This document shows positions 4,225 through 35,925 of a stretch of DNA of 35,925 nt, piece after piece; position 1 is the stretch's first letter; every line of letters starts with the position of its first letter. The stretch lies in the IMG/VR virus record IMGVR_UViG_3300032282_000325, positions 1 through 35,925 of that record; one strand, written 5' to 3'. Both the position numbers and the translations under genes were made by a program. Source of the stretch: a virus. The notes beneath the pieces are model-generated. The model was not told where the DNA came from, made no database searches, and was given only the letters and a program-made list of their open reading frames with translations.

Positions 4225-5262
4225 ATGTTCGGTCTTGCGCCATTCGGTACACCATTCAGCGCACCAGGGAATTCGTACTCTGTTTATGCTATCGCGGGTG
4301 GCTACGGCGGCAACTTCTACGGGTATGGACCGTATGGCGTCAGCATCACTACCGATTCTTTAATAGGTGGCTTTGCATACGACAAGTCATTGTCTGAGTC
4401 AGGATCAGCAGCAGATTCCGAGTTAGCAACTACAACGCTTGGCCTGACCATATCGGAATCCCTGTCAGCATCTGACGTTATAACCAATATTGCCACGATG
4501 GTGGTAAGCATTGCGGAGTCAGGCTCTGCATCTGATTCAATCAGCAATAACCTGGTGGCAGTCGCCTTTGCCAGCGAGTCTGTAACGGCATCCGACTCAC
4601 TCAGCAGCACCATCGTCTTCTTGGCGCTTGTCTCTGAAGCTACAAGCGCAACAGACGCGCAAGTCTGCATCTTGACGATACCGGTCCAGGTATCAGAGAC
4701 ACTGAGCGTATCGGACGCTATTTCCAATGTCCTGCAAGCAGTTGCGTCCGTCTCTGAAACGCTGACAGCATCAGATTCCAGAGTTGCAACATTAGATATT
4801 TCTGTTGCTGTGGCTGAGACACTGACAGCTACAGAGTCAATAGTTCCGACGTTTACATATCAAGTATTCAATACTGAGTCTGTAACGGCATCTGATTTGT
4901 CAACCATGACAGCTACATTCCTGGTGGATGTTGCCGAATCTTTGGCCGCCATAGATTCCTACGAAAACATCGGGATATTTGTAGCGAACATCTTCGAATC
5001 AGGATCGGCGCTGGACGATTACCTGTCAGGCCTGGAGTTCTTGGCGTCAATTGCCGAGGCTGCAAACGCACTGGACCTCATCACGCAGCGGCTGAAGTGG
5101 GAGCCGGAGCCAATCAATTCAGACACCTGGACAGACTCTGGAACGTCAACCACGACATGGACTACGCAGTCACCAAATACGGATAGCTGGACTATAATTT
5201 CTGACAACACCGACACCTGGACACCAGTAGGCACAACGTCCAAGGATTGGACAACCCAATGA
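4225..5262 (+). CDS. Repeat-built fibre-like virion protein (12 x 20-residue repeats)
   Basis: A 345-residue protein with three parts. Residues 1-50 are Gly/Tyr-rich (GGYGGNFYGYGPYG). Residues about 55-300 are twelve tandem 20-residue repeats with the core S/A-E-S/T-L/V-x-A-S-D (SESLSASD, SESVTASD, SETLTASD and so on), separated by a hydrophobic alternating stretch. The last 50 residues hold five Trp-Thr units (DTWTDSG, TTTWTTQ, DSWTI, DTWTPVG, KDWTTQ). The 20-residue period with alternating hydrophobics fits an elongated beta-solenoid or beta-roll rod. It sits between the two fibre cassettes and is probably a rod or spacer of the adhesion device. No family name is claimed. Confidence 0.8.
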   Translation: MFGLAPFGTPFSAPGNSYSVYAIAGGYGGNFYGYGPYGVSITTDSLIGGFAYDKSLSESGSAADSELATTTLGLTISESLSASDVITNIATMVVSIAESGSASDSISNNLVAVAFASESVTASDSLSSTIVFLALVSEATSATDAQVCILTIPVQVSETLSVSDAISNVLQAVASVSETLTASDSRVATLDISVAVAETLTATESIVPTFTYQVFNTESVTASDLSTMTATFLVDVAESLAAIDSYENIGIFVANIFESGSALDDYLSGLEFLASIAEAANALDLITQRLKWEPEPINSDTWTDSGTSTTTWTTQSPNTDSWTIISDNTDTWTPVGTTSKDWTTQ

Positions 5263-18326: not shown

Positions 18327-18456
18327 AGCCAACGAAATCCTGCATCCAGGTTAGTGCCTCCTCTGCTGTTGGCACTAATCCTGTTGATGCAGTGATCTCA
18401 TCTGCAAGTTCTAAAAGTTCTTGTAGTTTGTCTTTAATGCGTTGTATATCGCTCAT
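18256..18456 (-). CDS. Small coiled-coil protein at the end of the leftward cluster, 66 aa
   Basis: The last gene of the leftward cluster. The ATG at 18456 overlaps the stop of the winged-helix gene (TGATG); an upstream GTG at 18459 is also possible. The first 40 residues form a charged helix (DIQRIKDKLQELLELADEI) followed by AEEALTWMQDFVGS; the tail (QQADHHQSSIPLQQPV) looks unstructured. The 3' 71 bases are antisense to the end of the convergent 512-aa gene, so the two messages can pair. No family recognised. Confidence 0.62.
   Translation of the reverse strand: MSDIQRIKDKLQELLELADEITASTGLVPTAEEALTWMQDFVGSIDRNTGQQADHHQSSIPLQQPV
18341..18391. repeat. Long bulged inverted repeat between convergent operons
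   Basis: An 18-bp stem: TGCATC, CAGG and TTAGTGCC pair with GGCACTAA, CCTG and GATGCA, with small T and TT bulges and a 12-base loop. It lies 15 bases beyond the stop of the rightward operon and inside the coding part of the last leftward gene. Neither side carries a T-run, so it is not a standard terminator. It may still stop or pause transcripts from both directions. Confidence 0.7.
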
Positions 18457-20690: not shown

Positions 20691-20733
20691 TTTTCGGTGT
20701 AGAATGCGTCAACAAGGAGATGATAATCTAATC

Positions 20734-20964
20734 ATGGAATCCACTACACAACAAGCAATCAGAACGATTCGCGAGAAAGCGGAGAGGTCAGGCTTTACTC
20801 TGAGCGATGTCGCCTACGCGGCAGGCATTGACAAGGCCCAGGTCTCGCGCTGGAGCACCGGCAAGGTGGTTCCACTGTACTCGGCGGTCATCAAGCTGCA
20901 GGAGGCTTGCGATGCCCTGGTGGAAGCCAGGCTGCTGACGCTACAGAAGGAGAGCCAGCAGTGA
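20734..20964 (+). CDS. Small HTH regulator (Cro/CI-like), 76 aa
   Basis: A 76-residue DNA-binding protein with a helix-turn-helix at about residues 19-50: SGFTLSDVAYAAGIDKAQVS followed by RWSTGKVVPL, where the A-G-I-D-x-x-x-V-S-R-W core is typical of the lambda-repressor-like class. It is the first gene of the rightward early operon and faces a leftward operon, the arrangement of a phage control switch. AAGGAG at 20714-20719 is somewhat far from the ATG at 20734; an in-frame ATG at 20704 falls within the -10 box and is unlikely. The shared operator sequences suggest it acts here and near 27000. Confidence 0.85.
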   Translation: MESTTQQAIRTIREKAERSGFTLSDVAYAAGIDKAQVSRWSTGKVVPLYSAVIKLQEACDALVEARLLTLQKESQQ

Positions 20965-23369: not shown

Positions 23370-24827
23370 ATGAAATTTCTATCAGTTTGCAGTGGGATTG
23401 AGGCGGCAAGCGTCGCCTGGCATCCATTGGGATGGGAATCGGTGGCGTATTCGGAGATTGAGCCGTTCCCTTGCAAGGTTTTGCAACACCATTACCCAAA
23501 TGTGCCCAACTTGGGCGATATGACCAAATTTAAGGAGTGGGCTGATGCAGATGTCGATGTTTTCGTTGGAGGAACACCATGTCAATCTTTCTCAGTCGCA
23601 GGACTTAGAAGGGGATTGGATGACCCTCGTGGTAACCTCATGCTTACCTATCTTGCCATTGCTAAACAATATCGCCCCAACTGGTTGGTCTGGGAAAACG
23701 TCCCCGGCGTTTTGTCCTCCGCTGACGGACGGGACTTTGGTTCCTTCCTCGGAGGGTTGGCAATCCTCGGGTATGGGTTCGCATACAGGGTGCTTGACGC
23801 TCAATATTTCGGAGTGGCACAGCGACGCAAACGTGTGTTCGTTGTCGGATACCTTGGAGATTGGCGACCTGCCGCAGCGGTTCTTTTTGAGCGCCACAGC
23901 TTGCAAGGGCATCCTGCGCCGAGCCGAGAAAAGAGGAAAACAGTTGCCGCCAGCACTAGCACAAACCCTGTCTATGGCGGCTCAGACCCAAACACCTCAG
24001 ATACCGTGACAAGCAAATGGGCTAAAGGTAGTGGCGGCCCAGCTGGTAATGAATGCGGATTGTTTGTAGCGCAACCAATTGCTTTTGATGCTTATAACAA
24101 TGATGTTACTGGCGATGTGACCAAAACATTAGATACAGGACAGGATTACCACCATGTTCCGAATGTGATGCAACCAATCCCGCTGAACAGTATGAATGTT
24201 TTTAGAAGCCCCGATGCTGATGCAAGCACAGGGTGCGGAATTGGCGAAGCGGGTGAAGCTATGTTTACCATCACCAAAGGGAACAGCCATGCGGTGGCGC
24301 AACCCGTTTACGAAATGCATGGGCAGGACAGCCGTGTGCGGGAATTAAAAGATGTATGCACAACCGTGTCAGCTACTTATGGCGCTGGCGGTGGTAATGT
24401 GCCAGTAACATTGCAACCCATTGCATTTAGCGGCCAAATGTCAAACCCGCAGACTGATGTGGACATAACTCAAACATTGGGAGCCAAGAATCCAATGGCG
24501 GTGGCGCAAGCAGTAGGCACAGACCTATACAACTGCTCAATTACTGGCGATGTCAGCATGACGCTAAAACGCGGAGATGGTAATCCTGCCATCAATCAAC
24601 CGACAGTCATGCAAGCGATGGCAGTACGCCGTTTGACTCCCGTGGAGTGTGAGCGTCTGCAAGGGTTCCCTGATAACTACACCGACATCCAGCCCAAGGG
24701 CAAGGCGACCCCTGACGGGCCAAGGTACAAGGCGCTGGGCAACTCAATGGCTGTGCCTGTGATGGCATGGATCGGCAAAAGAATTCAAGAGGTGGACGCG
24801 ATATGCAAGACTCAACAGAACAAATAG
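23370..24827 (+). CDS. DNA cytosine-5 methyltransferase (Dcm type)
   Basis: A 485-residue enzyme that methylates the C5 position of cytosine in phage DNA. Motif I is FLSVCSGIEAAS (3-14), motif IV has the catalytic Cys71 in GGTPCQSFS, motif VI is ENVPG (109-113), motif VIII is QRRKRVF (151-157) and motif X contains ALGNSMAVPV near the end. The target-recognition region between VIII and IX (about 165-410) is long and built from related segments with a QPI-x-F then D-V-x-x-T-L-x pattern, a layout I recall from phage methyltransferases. No restriction enzyme gene is near, so a solitary protective or regulatory function is likely. Confidence 0.95.
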   Translation: MKFLSVCSGIEAASVAWHPLGWESVAYSEIEPFPCKVLQHHYPNVPNLGDMTKFKEWADADVDVFVGGTPCQSFSVAGLRRGLDDPRGNLMLTYLAIAKQYRPNWLVWENVPGVLSSADGRDFGSFLGGLAILGYGFAYRVLDAQYFGVAQRRKRVFVVGYLGDWRPAAAVLFERHSLQGHPAPSREKRKTVAASTSTNPVYGGSDPNTSDTVTSKWAKGSGGPAGNECGLFVAQPIAFDAYNNDVTGDVTKTLDTGQDYHHVPNVMQPIPLNSMNVFRSPDADASTGCGIGEAGEAMFTITKGNSHAVAQPVYEMHGQDSRVRELKDVCTTVSATYGAGGGNVPVTLQPIAFSGQMSNPQTDVDITQTLGAKNPMAVAQAVGTDLYNCSITGDVSMTLKRGDGNPAINQPTVMQAMAVRRLTPVECERLQGFPDNYTDIQPKGKATPDGPRYKALGNSMAVPVMAWIGKRIQEVDAICKTQQNK

Positions 24828-26881
24828 CCAAAGCCCTGGGCAACGCCAAGCAAGTCAACGGGAACTGGCTTGCGAGTTGCCCTGTAGCTGGGCATGGACG
24901 CGGAAACGGTGACAAGAACCCGAGTCTTAGCATCAAGGAAGACAATGGCAAGCTGCTGTTCCATTGCCACGGTGGATGCGACCAGCACTCTGTATTCGAC
25001 GCGGTCAGGGAACGCAACCTATTGCCAGCACTCCAGCGCCAGGAGTACAGTCTCGCGCTCATTAAAGGTGAATTGATGACTATGCCAACGCTGGAGCAGG
25101 AGTGGGAGTACAAGGACGAGCAAGGCGAGACCCTATTCGTAAAGCGCCGGTTCAAGACGAACACCGAGAAGGGTAAGACTTACTCTCTCCACAAGGTAGA
25201 TGCCGCGGGAAGACGCCAGGGCAGCATGACAGGTGCGCGGATAGTTCCTTACCGCCTGCCGGAACTTATCAACGCAAGGGAAGCTGGACGCGCCATCTAC
25301 CTGGTGGAAGGCGAGAAGGCAGCGGATGCATTGGTCAGCATAGGAGCCATTGCCACTACGTCCCACGCTGGTGCAAGCCACTGGCCGGCAGACATTACCC
25401 AATACTTCACCAACGCCGTGGTGATTGTGGTTCCGGACTGCGACGCGCCTGGCTGGAAGTACGCAAAGCGCGTAGTGCAGGCTTTGTTGCCAGTCGCCAA
25501 GGCGGTCAGAGTCTTGGACCTGAACCTACCCGAACTCGGGGATGACGCCTATGAGTGGGTTGCGGATGGCGGTGACCGCGCCAAACTGGCAGAACTCGCC
25601 AAGGCATTACCCGTCATCACCGACATCAACCAGGTGGTGACGCCAAAGTGGATTGTTCCACGGGAAACTACCGAAGTTACTGTAGAACCCGATAACTTTG
25701 ATAGAACTGAGCCGCCCATACTAGTACCGCGGCAATTGCTCAACATTGAGGCTTGGGATGACATCGAGGACGAGCCGGTGGAGTGGCTGATAGATAACGT
25801 GCTGCCGAAGCGTGCATTCTGCGCCCTATATGGGCCGCCAGGCAGCTACAAGTCATTCGTTGCATTGGACATTGCCGAGGCGGTGGCAACGGGCAGGACG
25901 TGGATGGGGCGCAAGGTGCAGTCGGCAGGCGCGGTGCTGTACATCTGCGGAGAGGGATTCGGCGGCATCGGAGCCAGGATCAAAGCCTGCAAGATGCACA
26001 ACCGCACGCAATCTGGAGCCGAGATCTACGTCATTCGCGCCGCGATAAACATGAGATCGAGCGCCGAGGACTTCGACTTGCTGGTGGCCTCGATTAAGGA
26101 CCTGATGGAGAAGTCAGGCGTCCAGTTCGAACTGGTGCAGATTGATACATTAGCTAGAGCATTCGGCGGTGGAAACGAGAACAACAGCGAAGATATGGGA
26201 GCGTTTATCCACAATGCTGGACGGATTCAGCGGATGCTGGGGTGCGCCATGATGGTGTTGCACCACAGCGGAAAGGATGCCACTAAGGGATTGCGGGGAC
26301 ATTCCAGCTTACTCGGAGCCGTGGACACCCAGCTGGAACTGCTGAAGGTTGACGCAACGCCCAACCCGTCCAGCCCGATAGCGGGGTCAGGAATCCTCAC
26401 GATCAGCAAGCAGAAGGATGGCCAGGATGGCGTCAAGATAGGCTTTGAGATGGTAAAGGTGGAGATCAAGGCCAGCGCACTAGGCATCAGCGACGCCCAG
26501 ATCAGCCTGGCTGTGAGGGCTAGTGATGAGGCGCTGAAGCAGGAGATGCAGAGCCAAGCAGTCGAGCGCCAGGCCAAGCCCAGAAAGCTGCAGGAGAACC
26601 AGCAGGCAGCGCTGGACTCGATCCACGATGCATTAAAGAAGAATGGGCATATGACAAACGTCGGTGAGGAGCGCCATAAGACCGTGTCGGTGTCCGAATG
26701 GAAGGAGGCATTCGCCAAGCTGAAGGGTGACAGCAAGTCAATCGACAGCGACTTTTACCGTGGCAAGAAGGCGATGTTCGCCAAGAAGCTGGTCGGGTAT
26801 CACGAGACGGATGTAGCGAATTACTGCTGGGTGATCTACCGCGATGGTGACAAAGATGAGCCGTTTGTGGCATCAGTTTGA
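24803..26881 (+). CDS. Primase-helicase (CHC2 zinc finger, TOPRIM, RepA-like helicase)
   Basis: The ATG at 24803 follows GAGGTGG and overlaps the methyltransferase by 25 bases; an upstream in-frame ATG at 24767 is less likely. The 692-residue protein has an N-terminal zinc finger (C26, H31, C55, C59 in SCPVAGH and FHCHGGC), a TOPRIM domain with VEGEK (168-172) and PDCDAPG (D212, D214), and a RepA-like AAA helicase with Walker A GPPGSYKS (344-351), Walker B VQIDT (D448) and LHHSGKDATKGLRGHSS. The C-terminal 100 residues look like a winged-helix end. It unwinds and primes phage DNA. No polymerase gene accompanies it. Confidence 0.94.
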   Translation: MQDSTEQIAKALGNAKQVNGNWLASCPVAGHGRGNGDKNPSLSIKEDNGKLLFHCHGGCDQHSVFDAVRERNLLPALQRQEYSLALIKGELMTMPTLEQEWEYKDEQGETLFVKRRFKTNTEKGKTYSLHKVDAAGRRQGSMTGARIVPYRLPELINAREAGRAIYLVEGEKAADALVSIGAIATTSHAGASHWPADITQYFTNAVVIVVPDCDAPGWKYAKRVVQALLPVAKAVRVLDLNLPELGDDAYEWVADGGDRAKLAELAKALPVITDINQVVTPKWIVPRETTEVTVEPDNFDRTEPPILVPRQLLNIEAWDDIEDEPVEWLIDNVLPKRAFCALYGPPGSYKSFVALDIAEAVATGRTWMGRKVQSAGAVLYICGEGFGGIGARIKACKMHNRTQSGAEIYVIRAAINMRSSAEDFDLLVASIKDLMEKSGVQFELVQIDTLARAFGGGNENNSEDMGAFIHNAGRIQRMLGCAMMVLHHSGKDATKGLRGHSSLLGAVDTQLELLKVDATPNPSSPIAGSGILTISKQKDGQDGVKIGFEMVKVEIKASALGISDAQISLAVRASDEALKQEMQSQAVERQAKPRKLQENQQAALDSIHDALKKNGHMTNVGEERHKTVSVSEWKEAFAKLKGDSKSIDSDFYRGKKAMFAKKLVGYHETDVANYCWVIYRDGDKDEPFVASV

Positions 26882-27000
26882 TAGGCAACTTGCGAAGTTG
26901 ACTATGAAAATATAGGCAGTTGCCTATGTACTTATGTTTGAGAAATATAGGCAACTCAATGAAATATAGGCAGTTGCCTATGCTGCAAGTTGCACAGGAA
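26882..27000. repeat. Iteron and palindrome array, possible replication origin or operator
   Basis: Four ATAGGCA units start at 26881, 26912, 26947 and 26966. Two are complete 16-bp palindromes, ATAGGCA-GT-TGCCTAT (26912-26927, 26966-26981); two are half-sites, ATAGGCAACT. Three are preceded by an AAAAT/AAATAT stretch. GCAACTTGC (26885-26893) and its inverse GCAAGTTGC (26985-26993) bracket the array exactly 100 bases apart. The segment is A/T-rich and lies directly after the primase-helicase gene, a usual place for a phage origin. Confidence 0.75.
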
Positions 27001-27017
27001 TAGGTAAAAACCTAGTC
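27001..27017. promoter_or_regulatory. Second copy of the operator-like element
   Basis: TAGGTAAAAACCTAGTC corresponds to TAGGGAAAACACCTAGTC at 20673-20690, differing by one base change and one base of length. The match suggests that one DNA-binding protein, probably the HTH regulator at 20734, acts at both places. Confidence 0.6.
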
Positions 27018-27060
27018 AACTTACAACTTCTTGCTTAATGCAAGAAGTAAGTTAACTAGG
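27011..27060. repeat. 50-base nested inverted repeat
   Basis: The outer arms CCTAGTCAACTT and AAGTTAACTAGG pair with one mismatch; the inner arms ACTTCTTGC and GCAAGAAGT pair perfectly around a TTAAT loop, with a 3-base ACA bulge on the left. The total stem is 21 bp with one mismatch. No T-run follows, so it is not a standard terminator. It may be extruded as a cruciform at an origin or act as a control element for the next gene. Confidence 0.8.
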
Positions 27061-27098
27061 TTGACTACCTCGGAAAGTTGGTATGGTGAAGTTGACTA
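27061..27098 (+). promoter_or_regulatory. Possible promoter and TTGACTA repeats before the terminase operon
   Basis: TTGACT (27061-27066) and TATGGT (27082-27087) form a weak promoter with a short 15-base spacer. TTGACTA occurs at 26898, 27061 and 27092 and, inverted, at 27013; GAAGTTGACTA is repeated exactly at 26894-26904 and 27088-27098. These repeats look like binding sites that could block or activate this promoter. Confidence 0.4.
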
Positions 27099-27113
27099 GA
27101 TGAGGAGTTGATG

Positions 27114-28460: not shown

Positions 28461-28615
28461 GGCTGCAGATCGTTTGTTCGATGCACGAACTAACCTGGCC
28501 GGTGGCCGCTCCCCCCCCCCGTCTGGCCGTGGCGGCGGGGCGGTTGTGGCAGCACCTAAACACCTACCGAACCCACGTTTCCTCTGACCCCCTACCCACA
28601 ACCTGATTGCGCACT

Positions 28616-30043
28616 ATGGTTACAAAAAAAAATTTGGAAGTTCCCGCGAACCCGTTTATCGAGTTCGCCCTGCGCTACCGAAACGACCCTGTGCTGTTTG
28701 TGCGCGAGGTGCTGAATACCGATCCTGATACTTGGCAAGTAGAGTTTCTGAATCACATCGCGGTAGGAAACCGACGCATTAGCGTACGCTCCGGCCACGG
28801 CGTAGGAAAGTCAACCGCTAGCGCCTGGGCAATGCTCTGGTATCTGTTCCTGCGGTTCCCTGTAAAGATTGTCGTTACAGCGCCAACGTCAAGCCAGCTT
28901 TACGACGCTTTGTTCGCGGAACTGAAGCGGTGGGTTAAGCAGCTACCGCCGATGCTGGCCGACCAGTTGGACGTCAAGCAGGACAGGGTCGAGGTCAAAG
29001 AAGCGCCAAACGAGGCGTTCATCTCGGCCAGGACCAGCCGCGCAGAGCAGCCCGAAGCATTGCAAGGAGTCCACAGCGACAACGTCATGCTGGTGGCAGA
29101 CGAGGCATCCGGCATCCCAGAGGCGGTGTTCGAAGCTGCAGCTGGTTCCATGTCGGGTCACAAGGCAGTGACGCTATTGCTGGGTAATCCGGTGCGCAGT
29201 ACGGGTTTCTTCTACGACACCCACAACCGGCTGAAAGATGACTGGATCACCATGAAGGTGTCCTGCTCCGACTCTCCCCGCGTCTCAGAGGCGTACCTGG
29301 GCGAGATGGCGGCACGCTACGGCGAGGAGAGCAACGCCTACAGGATCCGCGTGCTTGGAGAGTTCCCGCGCTCAGATGACGATACTGTCATCCCTATGGA
29401 GTTGCTGGAGATGGCGCAGCAAAGGGATGTTGAGCCGAGCCAGTCAGCGCCAATGGTCTGGGGTCTGGACGTTGCGCGGTTTGGAAGTGATAGGTCGGCA
29501 CTCTGCAAGCGCAAGGGTAACGCGGTGACCGAGCCAATCAAGACCTGGAAGAATCTGGACCTGATGCAACTTACTGGCGCAGTGGTCTCCGAGTACGAGG
29601 CTCTGCCGCCGTCCGAGCGCCCTATGGAGATCCTGGTGGATTCGATTGGCCTGGGCGCGGGAGTGGTTGACAGGCTCAAAGAGTTGAATCTTCCCTGTCG
29701 CGGCATCAATGTCTCAGAGTCGCCGGCGATGGGCGCGACTTACCGGAACCTGAAGGCCGAGTTGTGGCACAAGGCCAAAGCCTGGCTGGAGGGACGTGAC
29801 TGCAAGATGCCTAAGGACGAGGCTTTGGTGGCAGAGTTGGCCATCGTGCGGTATTCGTTCACGTCCAGCGGGAAGATTCAGATCGAGGGCAAGGACGAGA
29901 TCAGGAAACGCGGATTCCCGAGTCCGGACAGGGCAGACGCCTTTTGCCTGACGTTTGCCTCAGACGCGGTTATAGGAGCATTCGGCGGTGCTAAAGTATC
30001 CTGGAACAAGCCACTGCGCAGAAATCTTCCGCGAGTAGCATAA
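28616..30043 (+). CDS. Terminase large subunit
   Basis: A 475-residue packaging ATPase and nuclease. Walker A is SGHGVGKST (59-67), a TAPTSSQLYDALFAEL segment follows, and Walker B with the catalytic acid is VMLVADEASG (D162, E163). The C-terminal RNase-H-like nuclease shows GLDVARFGSD (D285, D292), VDSIGLGAG (D342) and SPDRADAF (D438, D441). The length is normal. The ATG at 28616 is followed by a run of nine A residues; a TTG at 28607 is an alternative start. No ribosome binding site is visible. It cuts and translocates the DNA into the prohead through the portal encoded at 32362. Confidence 0.95.
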   Translation: MVTKKNLEVPANPFIEFALRYRNDPVLFVREVLNTDPDTWQVEFLNHIAVGNRRISVRSGHGVGKSTASAWAMLWYLFLRFPVKIVVTAPTSSQLYDALFAELKRWVKQLPPMLADQLDVKQDRVEVKEAPNEAFISARTSRAEQPEALQGVHSDNVMLVADEASGIPEAVFEAAAGSMSGHKAVTLLLGNPVRSTGFFYDTHNRLKDDWITMKVSCSDSPRVSEAYLGEMAARYGEESNAYRIRVLGEFPRSDDDTVIPMELLEMAQQRDVEPSQSAPMVWGLDVARFGSDRSALCKRKGNAVTEPIKTWKNLDLMQLTGAVVSEYEALPPSERPMEILVDSIGLGAGVVDRLKELNLPCRGINVSESPAMGATYRNLKAELWHKAKAWLEGRDCKMPKDEALVAELAIVRYSFTSSGKIQIEGKDEIRKRGFPSPDRADAFCLTFASDAVIGAFGGAKVSWNKPLRRNLPRVA

Positions 30044-32365: not shown

Positions 32366-34485
32366 ACATGAACGATATGCCAGTGACCACCGACGTGGCC
32401 GCACAAGAGCCAATGGATGACACCGAACTGGAGGCGATCATCGGGCAGGACCTGACTGACGCCGTCAGTTATATCGATTCCGATATATCTCCTGTACGGG
32501 CTATGGGGACCGCCTACTACCGTGGAGATCCATTCGGGAATGAGGAAGATGGGCGCTCCCAAGTGGTGGCGATGGAGGTGCGCGACACCGTAAGCGCCAT
32601 GATGCCAAGCCTGATGCGAGTATTTTTTTCCAGCGAGAACACTGTCGAGTACGTCCCAGAGACACCGGCAGATGTGGAGTACGCCAAGCAGGCCACAGAC
32701 TACGCGAACTTCATATTTAACCGTGACAACAATGGTTTTATGACCACCTACGCCATCTTCAAGGACTCGCTGGTCCGGAAGTGCGGAATTGCAAAATTCT
32801 GGTGGGAGGACTCCGAAAAGGTGGAGATCACCGACTTCAGTGGCCTGGATGATCAGACCCTGCAAATACTGATGCAGGAGCAGGCCGAGGTCAAGATTGT
32901 GGTTTCGTACCCTGATCCCGACGCGCCACCCATGCAGCCAATGATTGACCCTATGACGGGTCAGATGATGCCGCCCCCACCGCCACCCATGCTGCACGAC
33001 GTGCAGATTAAGCGCGTAACCAAGGACGGTCGCATCAAGATCATGGCAGTGCCGCCCGAGGAATTGCTGATCGACCGTCGTGCGCGGTCTTTTGATGATT
33101 GCAGCCTGATAGCGCACCGCAAGATGGCGACAGTCGCTGAACTAATTGCGATGGGCTACGACGAGGACGAGGTGCTGGACAACGTCACCGCCTCTGACTT
33201 GGACGATAACGAGGAGTATCTGGCACGCCAGCCGCTGGCGACTGCCATCGGGCAGACAGACAGCGCCAACCCCATGCAGCGCCGCGTCCTATACATCGAG
33301 GCGTATGAGCGCATCGACTACGACGGCGACGGCATCCCCGAATTGCGCAAAATCTGCTGCATGGGTTCCAGCTACAAGGTCGTGCGCAACCTACCGGCGA
33401 GTTACATCCCGTTTGTGGACTTCCCCTGCGATCCCGAGCCACATACATCCCCCATCGAGGCGATGTCCATATTCGACATCACGCACGACATCCAAGAGAT
33501 CAAGTCCGAAATCCTGCGCAACACGCTGGATAGCCTGGCTCAGTCCATCCACCCCCGCACCGCGGTGGTCGAGGGCCAGGTCAACATGGATGACGTGCTT
33601 AACAATGAAACGGGCGCGATTATTCGTATGCGTGCCCCTGGCATGGTGCAGCCGTTCTCCAGCCCGTTTGTAGGGCAGGCCGCGTTCCCCATGCTGGACT
33701 ACATCGACCAGATCAAGGAAGACCGCACCGGCATGAGCAAGGCCGCTATGGGTCTGAACGCCGACGCCTTGCAGTCAAGCACCAAGGCCGCGGTGGCCGC
33801 CACCATCAGCGCGTCCCAGGGCCGCATTGAACTGACGGCGCGGATGATGGCCGAGGGCATGAAAAAATTATTCAAGGGCATCCTGTTCCTGATGGTGACC
33901 CATCAGGACAAGCCCCGCATGATTCGTCTGCGCGACCAATTTGTGGAGATCGATCCACGCGCCTGGAACGCCAACATGGACGTGAGCATCAACATCGGCC
34001 TGGGCAACGGCGACACCAACGAGCGCCTGCAGGCTCTGATGATGATTAGTGCCAAGCAGCAGGAGGCGCTGACCCAGCTCGGCCCACAGAACCCGCTGGT
34101 AAGCCCGTCCATGTACGCCAGCACCCTGCGCAAGATTGTGGAATTAAGCGGGTTCAAGGACTCCAGCCAGTTCTTTAACGACATCCCAGCCGACTACCAG
34201 CCGCCAGCGCCACCACCTGAGAAACCGACTCCAGAGCAAGTGCTGGCCGAGGTCCAGGCCAAGTCTATTGAGGCTGATATCCAGAAGAAGGCCGCCGAGT
34301 TGGAACTCAAGCGCGAGCAGATGATCCGCGACGATGATTTTCGGCGTGACCAGTTGGCGCAGGATGGACTACTAAAGAAATATGAAATTGAGTTAAAGTA
34401 CAACGCACAGATTAGCAACGCTGAGATTCAAGCTGTCACCAGCATGAATCGAGAGGCAACCATCAACCAACCTGGAATGGCATGA
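32362..34485 (+). CDS. Portal protein, P22-type
   Basis: A 707-residue portal subunit, the dodecameric ring through which DNA enters and leaves the head. Recognisable parts: EVRDTVSAMMPSLMRVFFSS, YANFIFNRDNNGFMTTYAIF, KDSLVRKCGIAKFWWED, MAVPPEELLIDRRARSFDD, SIFDITHDIQEIKSEILRNT, then LDSLAQSIHPRTAVVEG and a C-terminal barrel-type coiled coil (AKSIEADIQKKAAELELKRE). A Pro-rich loop (PPPPPPM) lies near residue 210. The length is in the usual range for P22-like portals. The start overlaps the methyltransferase stop, and its own stop overlaps the next start. Confidence 0.94.
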   Translation: MNMNDMPVTTDVAAQEPMDDTELEAIIGQDLTDAVSYIDSDISPVRAMGTAYYRGDPFGNEEDGRSQVVAMEVRDTVSAMMPSLMRVFFSSENTVEYVPETPADVEYAKQATDYANFIFNRDNNGFMTTYAIFKDSLVRKCGIAKFWWEDSEKVEITDFSGLDDQTLQILMQEQAEVKIVVSYPDPDAPPMQPMIDPMTGQMMPPPPPPMLHDVQIKRVTKDGRIKIMAVPPEELLIDRRARSFDDCSLIAHRKMATVAELIAMGYDEDEVLDNVTASDLDDNEEYLARQPLATAIGQTDSANPMQRRVLYIEAYERIDYDGDGIPELRKICCMGSSYKVVRNLPASYIPFVDFPCDPEPHTSPIEAMSIFDITHDIQEIKSEILRNTLDSLAQSIHPRTAVVEGQVNMDDVLNNETGAIIRMRAPGMVQPFSSPFVGQAAFPMLDYIDQIKEDRTGMSKAAMGLNADALQSSTKAAVAATISASQGRIELTARMMAEGMKKLFKGILFLMVTHQDKPRMIRLRDQFVEIDPRAWNANMDVSINIGLGNGDTNERLQALMMISAKQQEALTQLGPQNPLVSPSMYASTLRKIVELSGFKDSSQFFNDIPADYQPPAPPPEKPTPEQVLAEVQAKSIEADIQKKAAELELKREQMIRDDDFRRDQLAQDGLLKKYEIELKYNAQISNAEIQAVTSMNREATINQPGMA

Positions 34486-35693: not shown

Positions 35694-35925
35694 ATGAGTA
35701 TCGTTACCAATACTTTCACCACCTTTGACGCCAAAGGTATTCGTGAAGACCTGTCCAATATCATCACCAATATCGCTCCCGAAGAAACTCCTTACATGAG
35801 CAACATCGGACGCGAGTCAATCAGCAATTCGCTGTTTGAGTATCAGACCGACACGCTGGCCGCCGCCGCAGCTAACAAGCAGATCGAGGGTGACGATGTC
35901 GCCTCTTTTGACGCTGTTACCGCAA
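35694..35925 (+). CDS. Major capsid protein, SU10-like (5' part)
   Basis: The first 77 codons of the capsid gene, from the ATG at 35694. The reading frame at 35805 matches that at position 3 of the window exactly, so the complete product is 320 residues. It starts SIVTNTFTTFDAKGIREDLS, then NIITNIAPEETPYMSNIG, the typical N-terminus of the family. The upstream scaffold gene ends seven bases earlier. A GTGAG near the scaffold stop may act as ribosome binding site. Confidence 0.93.
   Translation, partial: MSIVTNTFTTFDAKGIREDLSNIITNIAPEETPYMSNIGRESISNSLFEYQTDTLAAAAANKQIEGDDVASFDAVTA
35803..35925. repeat. Terminal direct repeat, right copy
   Basis: Identical to positions 1-123. Removing one copy gives a 35,802-bp circle. 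The point of opening lies inside the capsid gene. Confidence 0.95.

Follow-up and report, generated by a model that had tools for sequence, protein, structure and literature searches.

The helicase of the P4 alpha protein belongs to the SF3 class. Alpha is described as a single polypeptide that joins a Toprim-type primase, a helicase and a winged helix that binds the origin repeats (PMC4234260). In the available account of SaPI Rep and SCC Cch2, a C-terminal domain binds iterons that lie directly downstream of the gene (PMC7581432), and the RSF1010 oriV is described as combining iterons, a RepA-family helicase and the ssi hairpins at which the primase starts (PMC4434180; PMC4234260). For pRN1, the same review reports a stem-loop origin 3′ of the primase-helicase gene that is conserved in shape and not in sequence, together with a C-terminal winged helix, and phage BIP-1 has a similar stem-loop (PMC4234260). 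In the RepA-ori modules of the PLE satellites of Vibrio, the DNA-binding domain of the initiator and the origin covary and are swapped together, with cognate specificity shown (PMC8263062).

Here we analysed a phage record of 35,925 nt (the window), the ends of which carry an identical 123-nt direct repeat (1–123 and 35803–35925); the genome is therefore probably complete or circular, unless the repeat is an assembly overlap. The locus of interest comprises, in order, a primase-helicase gene, a gap of 226 nt, the gene for a conserved protein that we call P217, and the gene for the terminase small subunit (TerS), which begins ~700 nt downstream of the gap. The primase-helicase (24767..26881, + strand; 704 aa) was assigned from PHROG primase/helicase matches, Pfam, a profile match and motifs. 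Its N-terminal part matches phage DNA primase families and shows Zn-ribbon/Toprim-like motifs, including EGEKAADAL and DCDAPG, seen by eye in the primase consensus. A RepA-type RecA-fold helicase follows, with Pfam AAA_25 at residues 329–505 and a match to RSF1010 RepA (1g8y; E 1.6e-6, residues 321–487) that was the sole PDB profile match, and a predicted winged helix forms the C terminus. P217 (27108..27761, + strand) had no PHROG match and no Pfam match above the cut-off, and its predicted structure (mean pLDDT 73) gave no convincing fold match.

This fusion of primase, helicase and (predicted) winged helix resembles P4 alpha; by contrast with alpha, the helicase is RepA-type, a conserved hairpin lies inside the array, and the array lies directly downstream of the gene. 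Iterons directly downstream of a helicase gene and a predicted C-terminal dsDNA-binding domain are also found with SaPI Rep and Cch2, although these, as described, belong to other helicase families and Cch2 lacks a fused primase. The SF3/D5-type or DUF927 core of such self-loading initiators was not found here; AAA_25 and the RSF1010 RepA match stood in its place. With RSF1010 the locus shares a RepA-family helicase and iterons; its hairpin, kept by compensation, may be a counterpart of the ssi hairpins. Compared with published descriptions of that plasmid, however, one fused protein seemingly replaces three (RepA, RepB′ and RepC), and there is one hairpin rather than ssiA and ssiB. We found no separate RepC iteron binder and no RepB′ archaeo-eukaryotic primase; the phage primase resembles the bacterial type, and the covarying domain is within the same protein. 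As for pRN1 and BIP-1, the stem-loop lies 3′ of the replication gene and is kept in shape and not in sequence. In its description pRN1 differs in having no iterons, no specific binding found and a primase and helicase of other families; neither a prim-pol plus SF3 replication protein nor an absence of iterons was seen in our phage. The covariation and joint swapping of a predicted reader domain and its origin parallel the PLE modules, although PLE RepA is not described in that source as a primase-helicase and its three ~30-bp repeats lie in a separate noncoding region. Thus, as these systems are described, none combines all of the features seen here; the parts are combined differently.

The iteron array and its nested hairpin

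The gap (26882..27107, + strand) is intergenic and is the putative replication origin; its length is kept in relatives, and it is exchanged together with the C-terminal domain (see below). It contains ~10 copies of the word AGTTGMCTA in both orientations. When up to one mismatch was allowed, AAGTTGACTA had 7 matches in the window, of which 6 were inside the gap, compared with 1.5 expected window-wide. The cluster is confined to this one gap, with one near match elsewhere in the window, and these counts confirm that the hairpin arms and the surrounding sites have words in common, as the first-pass annotation had proposed.

Word searches together with offset comparisons placed single iterons at 26895..26904 (+; AAGTTGACTA), 26947..26956 (−; ATAGGCAACT), 27058..27067 (+; AGGTTGACTA) and 27089..27098 (+; AAGTTGACTA), the last adjoining the P217 start. 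Two overlapping head-to-head iterons (ATAGGCAGTTGCCTAT, assigned to neither strand) occupy 26912..26927 and again 26966..26981, and a further iteron at 26882..26891 (−; TAGGCAACTT) has counterparts at the same offset in other word types. The outer arms of the hairpin are iterons as well, identified by word, offset and arm pairing: AACCTAGTCAACTT on the 5′ side (27009..27022, −) and AAGTTAACTAGGTT on the 3′ side (27049..27062, +), the latter also by likeness of the pair. Between them lies the non-iteron inner hairpin ACTTCTTGC-TTAAT-GCAAGAAGT (27026..27048, assigned to neither strand), recognised by pairing with changes on both sides and by covariation; its perfect 9-bp arms (27026–27034 and 27040–27048) enclose the 5-nt loop TTAAT.

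The 50-nt nested repeat reported in the first pass was thus confirmed, with arms at 27009–27029 and 27042–27062 (21 nt each, 86% complementary) that include the reported 12-bp outer arms with one mismatch (27011–27022 and 27049–27060). RNA folding of both strands, the check suggested at that time, yielded z values of −8.3 (+) and −9.7 (−), with 0 of 200 shuffles in each case. The stem had been judged too long for chance. When folding energy was corrected for GC, 27007–27066 (z −5.99) took the top rank among 5978 windows of 60 nt covering the whole 36-kb phage genome. A second perfect 9-bp stem is present at 33887–33908, so the inner stem alone is not unique, and the special feature is the nested whole. 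The next strongest folds in the genome, at 18337–18396 and 829–900, lie directly past gene ends and are probably terminators.

An intrinsic terminator at the hairpin itself was not supported. On the + strand the stem has no T-run behind it; read on the − strand, it leads into a T5 run (27006–27010, read backwards) that is absent in type B relatives. The earlier remark that the repeat lacks a terminator tail therefore holds for one strand only. A scan for terminators and promoters returned nothing useful at the hairpin site, the gap had no Rfam match, and a comparison of the gap DNA with named phages found no similarity.

Layout and pairing among relatives

Two scans of IMG/VR, one of which considered the best 80 of 109 candidates, recovered at least 132 loci. 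A filter that required both genes, a P217 match starting within the first 10 residues and a gap below 1500 nt passed 97 of the 132. As many contigs were present as two loci, we counted distinct gaps, of which there were 53, with lengths of 221–239 nt; 14 distant loci removed by the filter were analysed separately. After inspection of the gaps, word types were assigned by pattern: type A, GTTGMCTA (34 loci, window included); type B, GTYGGCTA (26 loci); type C, GTTGGGTA or GTTGACCA (6 loci); type D, GTTGCGTA (16 loci); type E, ACTGCATA (4 loci); type F, ATTACATA (4 loci); and type G, GCGTATA-like (8 loci). The words of each type are frequent in its own gaps; those of type B are absent from the gaps of other types, and some words occur at low frequency in more than one of several remaining types.

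The arrangement of the words is retained. Relative to the loop, they recur at about −150 (−), −136 (+), −114 (+), −85 (−), −60 (+), −20 (−), +17 (+) and +25 (+), with a match in position and orientation that is partial for type C (for which one word was tried) and least exact for type G. Of these iterons, those near −20 (−) and +17 (+) form the outer hairpin arms. The layout is therefore constant while the word is replaced wholesale between types. By eye, the non-iteron stretch GTACTTATGTTTG at 26928–26940 is kept, or nearly so, in types A to D while adjacent words change, and it is possibly an extra protein site or a melting element.

The DNA methyltransferase gene directly upstream of the primase-helicase gene (23370–24827) is patchy among relatives, being matched in 37 loci at low mean coverage, compared with 93 loci for its neighbour p189. 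Close relatives that have the same replication genes differ widely in the terminase large subunit (28607–30043; identity ~31% to 99%), which suggests that the packaging module is exchanged. Two scans of genome contigs for a host recovered no true relative, and the weak partial matches obtained were mostly to the primase region.

We then examined the pairing of the arms. Inner pairs 1–6 are Watson–Crick in all 54 distinct gaps (window included) and pair 8 is so in 35 of them. Ten distinct inner hairpins occur, with bases differing on both sides; types A, B, C, D and F share the loop TTAAT, type E has CTAAT, and type G has TTAA or TTTA. Pairs were counted on eight of the ten, leaving out the two type G hairpins with their 4-nt loop: 94.4% of cells were paired, compared with 72.5% in shuffles and 33–45% when the arms were slid, and 15 cells were changed on both sides, compared with 4.6 in shuffles. 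The search for compensatory changes in related phages, proposed in the first pass, was thus positive. Covariation of the inner stem was 0.639, against 0.198 when shuffled (0 of 500). The outer arms pair at 10 to 12 of 12 positions in 54 of 54 distinct gaps, in the best register within a small range, and a bulge of 3–4 nt on the 5′ side is likewise kept in all 54. Relatives in which arm changes freely break the pairing, the outcome named as contrary to a structural role, were not found for either the inner or the outer arms. As the arms pair through their changes, it is pairing, and not the word alone, that seems to be kept, which makes the suggested cruciform, or a structure in single-stranded DNA, plausible. 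In the first family the deepest 60-nt window has z < −3 in 53 of 53 distinct gaps.

The 14 distant loci, at 48–50% primase identity, have the same gene order with the words GGACAAATGG and another stem. After a further scan, covering the best 80 of 188 candidates, and re-examination, 92 of 93 loci proved to have the primase, the gap and P217 together, giving 60 distinct gaps with words that include GAGACGAATGG, GATAGATAG and GTCTACATATGG. In this second family (~48% identical), the deepest fold has z < −3 in 60 of 60 distinct gaps and begins 48–69 nt into the gap in 55 of them and further along in 5. In each family the conserved P217 gene follows the gap. Among other phages, a more distant, uncultured spring phage (L220, MW202711) has a GC-rich inverted repeat following repA (4319–4354); its gap after repA contains no iterons, which counts against the origin reading. 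There is no gap following repA in MW202879; in Sinorhizobium phage phiM5, whose terminase is related, a primase/polymerase is annotated and the helicase is separate. Finally, a search of IMG/VR with the hairpin pattern for contigs without the gene pair, as expected of origin-stealing satellites, found none: the type A pattern matched 31 stretches and the type B pattern 17, one per contig, and all of these contigs were among those already recovered in the first two scans (names compared by eye).

These data also bear on whether the hairpin forms. The gap could be an origin in which the inverted repeat is only a paired protein site and never folds, a variant that we consider unlikely, although it deserves weight; its share of probability overlaps that of the origin reading because it is a version of the same reading. 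The outer arms are indeed an inverted iteron pair, and when pair likeness was computed (types A, B, D, E and F; 46 of 54 gaps), types B and D gave a flanking pair whose likeness was barely, if at all, above that of other iteron pairs. For types A, E and F, however, the flanking pair is alike over 15 of 16 nt, compared with ~11 for other pairs. A paired protein site also does not readily explain an inner 9-bp stem that is non-iteron, varies by type and still pairs around a nearly constant loop, the invariable 5′ bulge, or the strong fold in every distinct gap of the distant family.

The protein domain that tracks the word

To relate the words to a protein, we examined how well each residue column of eight proteins agrees with word type: the primase-helicase, HTH86, RuvC, p73, an exonuclease, p189, P217 and TerS. 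The primase-helicase had 14 top columns of residue-versus-type information, all within residues 595–695, and none of the other seven proteins showed anything comparable. Expressed relative to variation, shared information rose from ~0.15–0.58 over residues 1–580 to 0.65–0.83 over residues 601–700. We also used 46 distinct rows with primase coverage above 90% for tree and distance tests. Word type changed 7 times on the tree of the C-terminal domain, where the minimum is 6, compared with 17 times for residues 301–585, 23 for residues 20–300 and 17 for P217. In a test that makes no use of types, gap word distance correlated with C-terminal domain distance at r 0.764, compared with 0.261 for the rest of the primase and 0.157 for P217; the partial r between gap words and domain was 0.759 (0 of 2000 permutations) in the first family and 0.801 in the second. 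Gap distance also correlates, less strongly, with the flanks (partial r 0.157 and 0.225 in the first family, 0.450 and 0.488 in the second), and as the C-terminal domain adjoins the gap, the covariation is partly linkage; P217 and primase residues 301–585, which are equally near, show no comparable covariation.

The exchange is visible in individual pairs of loci. With positions counted from the primase stop codon, nucleotide identity between loci L009 and L034 is 0.39–0.60 from about −375 to +225, mostly 0.67–0.93 further upstream and 0.95 immediately afterwards, at the P217 start; the pair L041 and L066 shows the reverse pattern. Judged by these identity profiles, the C-terminal domain and the gap are exchanged as one putative specificity cassette.

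The iteron reader is probably the C-terminal stretch of ~110 residues in the primase-helicase, for which we predict binding as a winged helix (~residues 596–704; 26552..26878, + strand) from the AlphaFold2 model, the fold match and the tracking of type. The model, built from 44 sequences, has pLDDT block means of 84–93 over model residues 51–130 and the element order helix, two strands, helix, helix, two strands, and it matches winged-helix domains, including archaeal Cdc6, at Z 9–10. Foldseek gave no match to the PDB with E < 0.001, and P4 alpha was absent from the list, an absence that carries no weight; against predicted viral proteins, the best two matches were other phage primase-helicase-like proteins. 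In the model, mean information is higher in the predicted recognition helix (residues 659–672; 26741–26782, + strand) than in any other element of the domain (1.02, compared with 0.68 for the rest). This enrichment was not significant: among all contiguous stretches of 14 residues in the domain, 6.5% equal it, and the helix is therefore not significantly distinct.

The first-pass annotation likened the words to operators and saw the hairpin as a possible protein target. The protein target is well supported, whereas the words are better read as origin iterons than as repressor operators. That they might be sites for a Cro/CI-like repressor or a late-gene switch controlling P217 and the terminase genes is suggested by the operator-like look of the palindromic paired words, by their position upstream of these genes and by a small HTH protein encoded in the window (HTH86, 86 aa; 20704–20964). 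We nevertheless find it improbable: this Cro/CI-like protein does not covary with word type (no listed column exceeds 0.63 in information, and none separates the types cleanly over 37 rows), the words are limited to one gap apart from the single near match, and a scan for sigma70-like promoters near the array found 0. The hairpin had also been placed before the terminase operon; TerS does start ~750 nt past it, but the immediate next gene is that for P217.

High RNA stability on both strands, a position ~45 nt upstream of P217 and the compensatory changes in the stem could equally describe an RNA element, either a hairpin in the P217 leader or a processing or attenuation signal. We hold this to be quite improbable, as the outer arms are iterons that track a predicted DNA-binding domain, no Rfam family matches, and the T-run is missing on the + strand and not kept on the − strand in type B. 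The RNA switch suggested earlier finds no support, given the missing Rfam match, the fixed repeats on both strands and the covariation with that predicted domain. Iteron arrays also act as centromeres and the gap is close to the terminase small subunit gene, but a packaging (pac/cos) or partition site is most improbable of all, with TerS not tracking word type (largest listed information 0.46) and no partition gene recognised among 25 window proteins (PHROGs, Pfam).

A candidate origin with a putative exchangeable reader

From the sequence comparisons, we consider it likely that the hairpin forms the structural centre of an iteron replication origin of the phage, recognised by the C-terminal domain of the primase-helicase. 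The cumulative GC skew was uninformative, with no turn at 27 kb to support an origin. In the mechanism that we propose, the ~10 iterons in the gap would be bound by the C-terminal winged helix of the primase-helicase encoded upstream, and this binding would load the RepA-type helicase ring on its own origin, at the adjacent hairpin. The hairpin, flanked by the inverted iteron pair of its outer arms, would contribute the inner 9-bp stem and YTAAT loop. Supercoiling or melting would allow it to form in DNA, and the formed hairpin may then be the entry point of the helicase or a template structure for the first primer of the fused primase, the latter by analogy with the ssi hairpins of RSF1010. 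We give about even chances to the hairpin acting as a cruciform or single-stranded hairpin. The sequence comparisons show the anatomy, the constant layout, the compensated pairing, the covariation of word with domain and the cassette exchange; from these we infer physical binding, loading, priming and origin activity, as well as whether the hairpin is extruded or forms after melting.

More tentatively, and short of an even chance, this large, uncultured phage group may have a switchable origin, in which one polypeptide reads the array and opens a shape-conserved hairpin, the phages repeatedly trading the reader domain together with the matching origin. By such an exchange a phage would probably evade decoys of its origin, nucleases that cut it, or replication interference and competition from co-infecting relatives. 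Extra copies of the origin are reported to block growth of lambda (PMC4488673), and for the PLE satellites the source describes module swapping under such pressure and documents origin-cutting nucleases (PMC8263062).

We found no report of this phage group or origin in the open-access PMC literature. The locus would be an iteron-plus-hairpin origin for which one fused protein, its helicase being of the RepA type, apparently suffices. It offers seven natural pairs of word and domain in one phage group with the rest of the origin constant, and more words in the second family. These pairs are suited to testing how the DNA specificity of an initiator changes, and whether origin identity is used to avoid other phages, satellites or origin-targeting defences.
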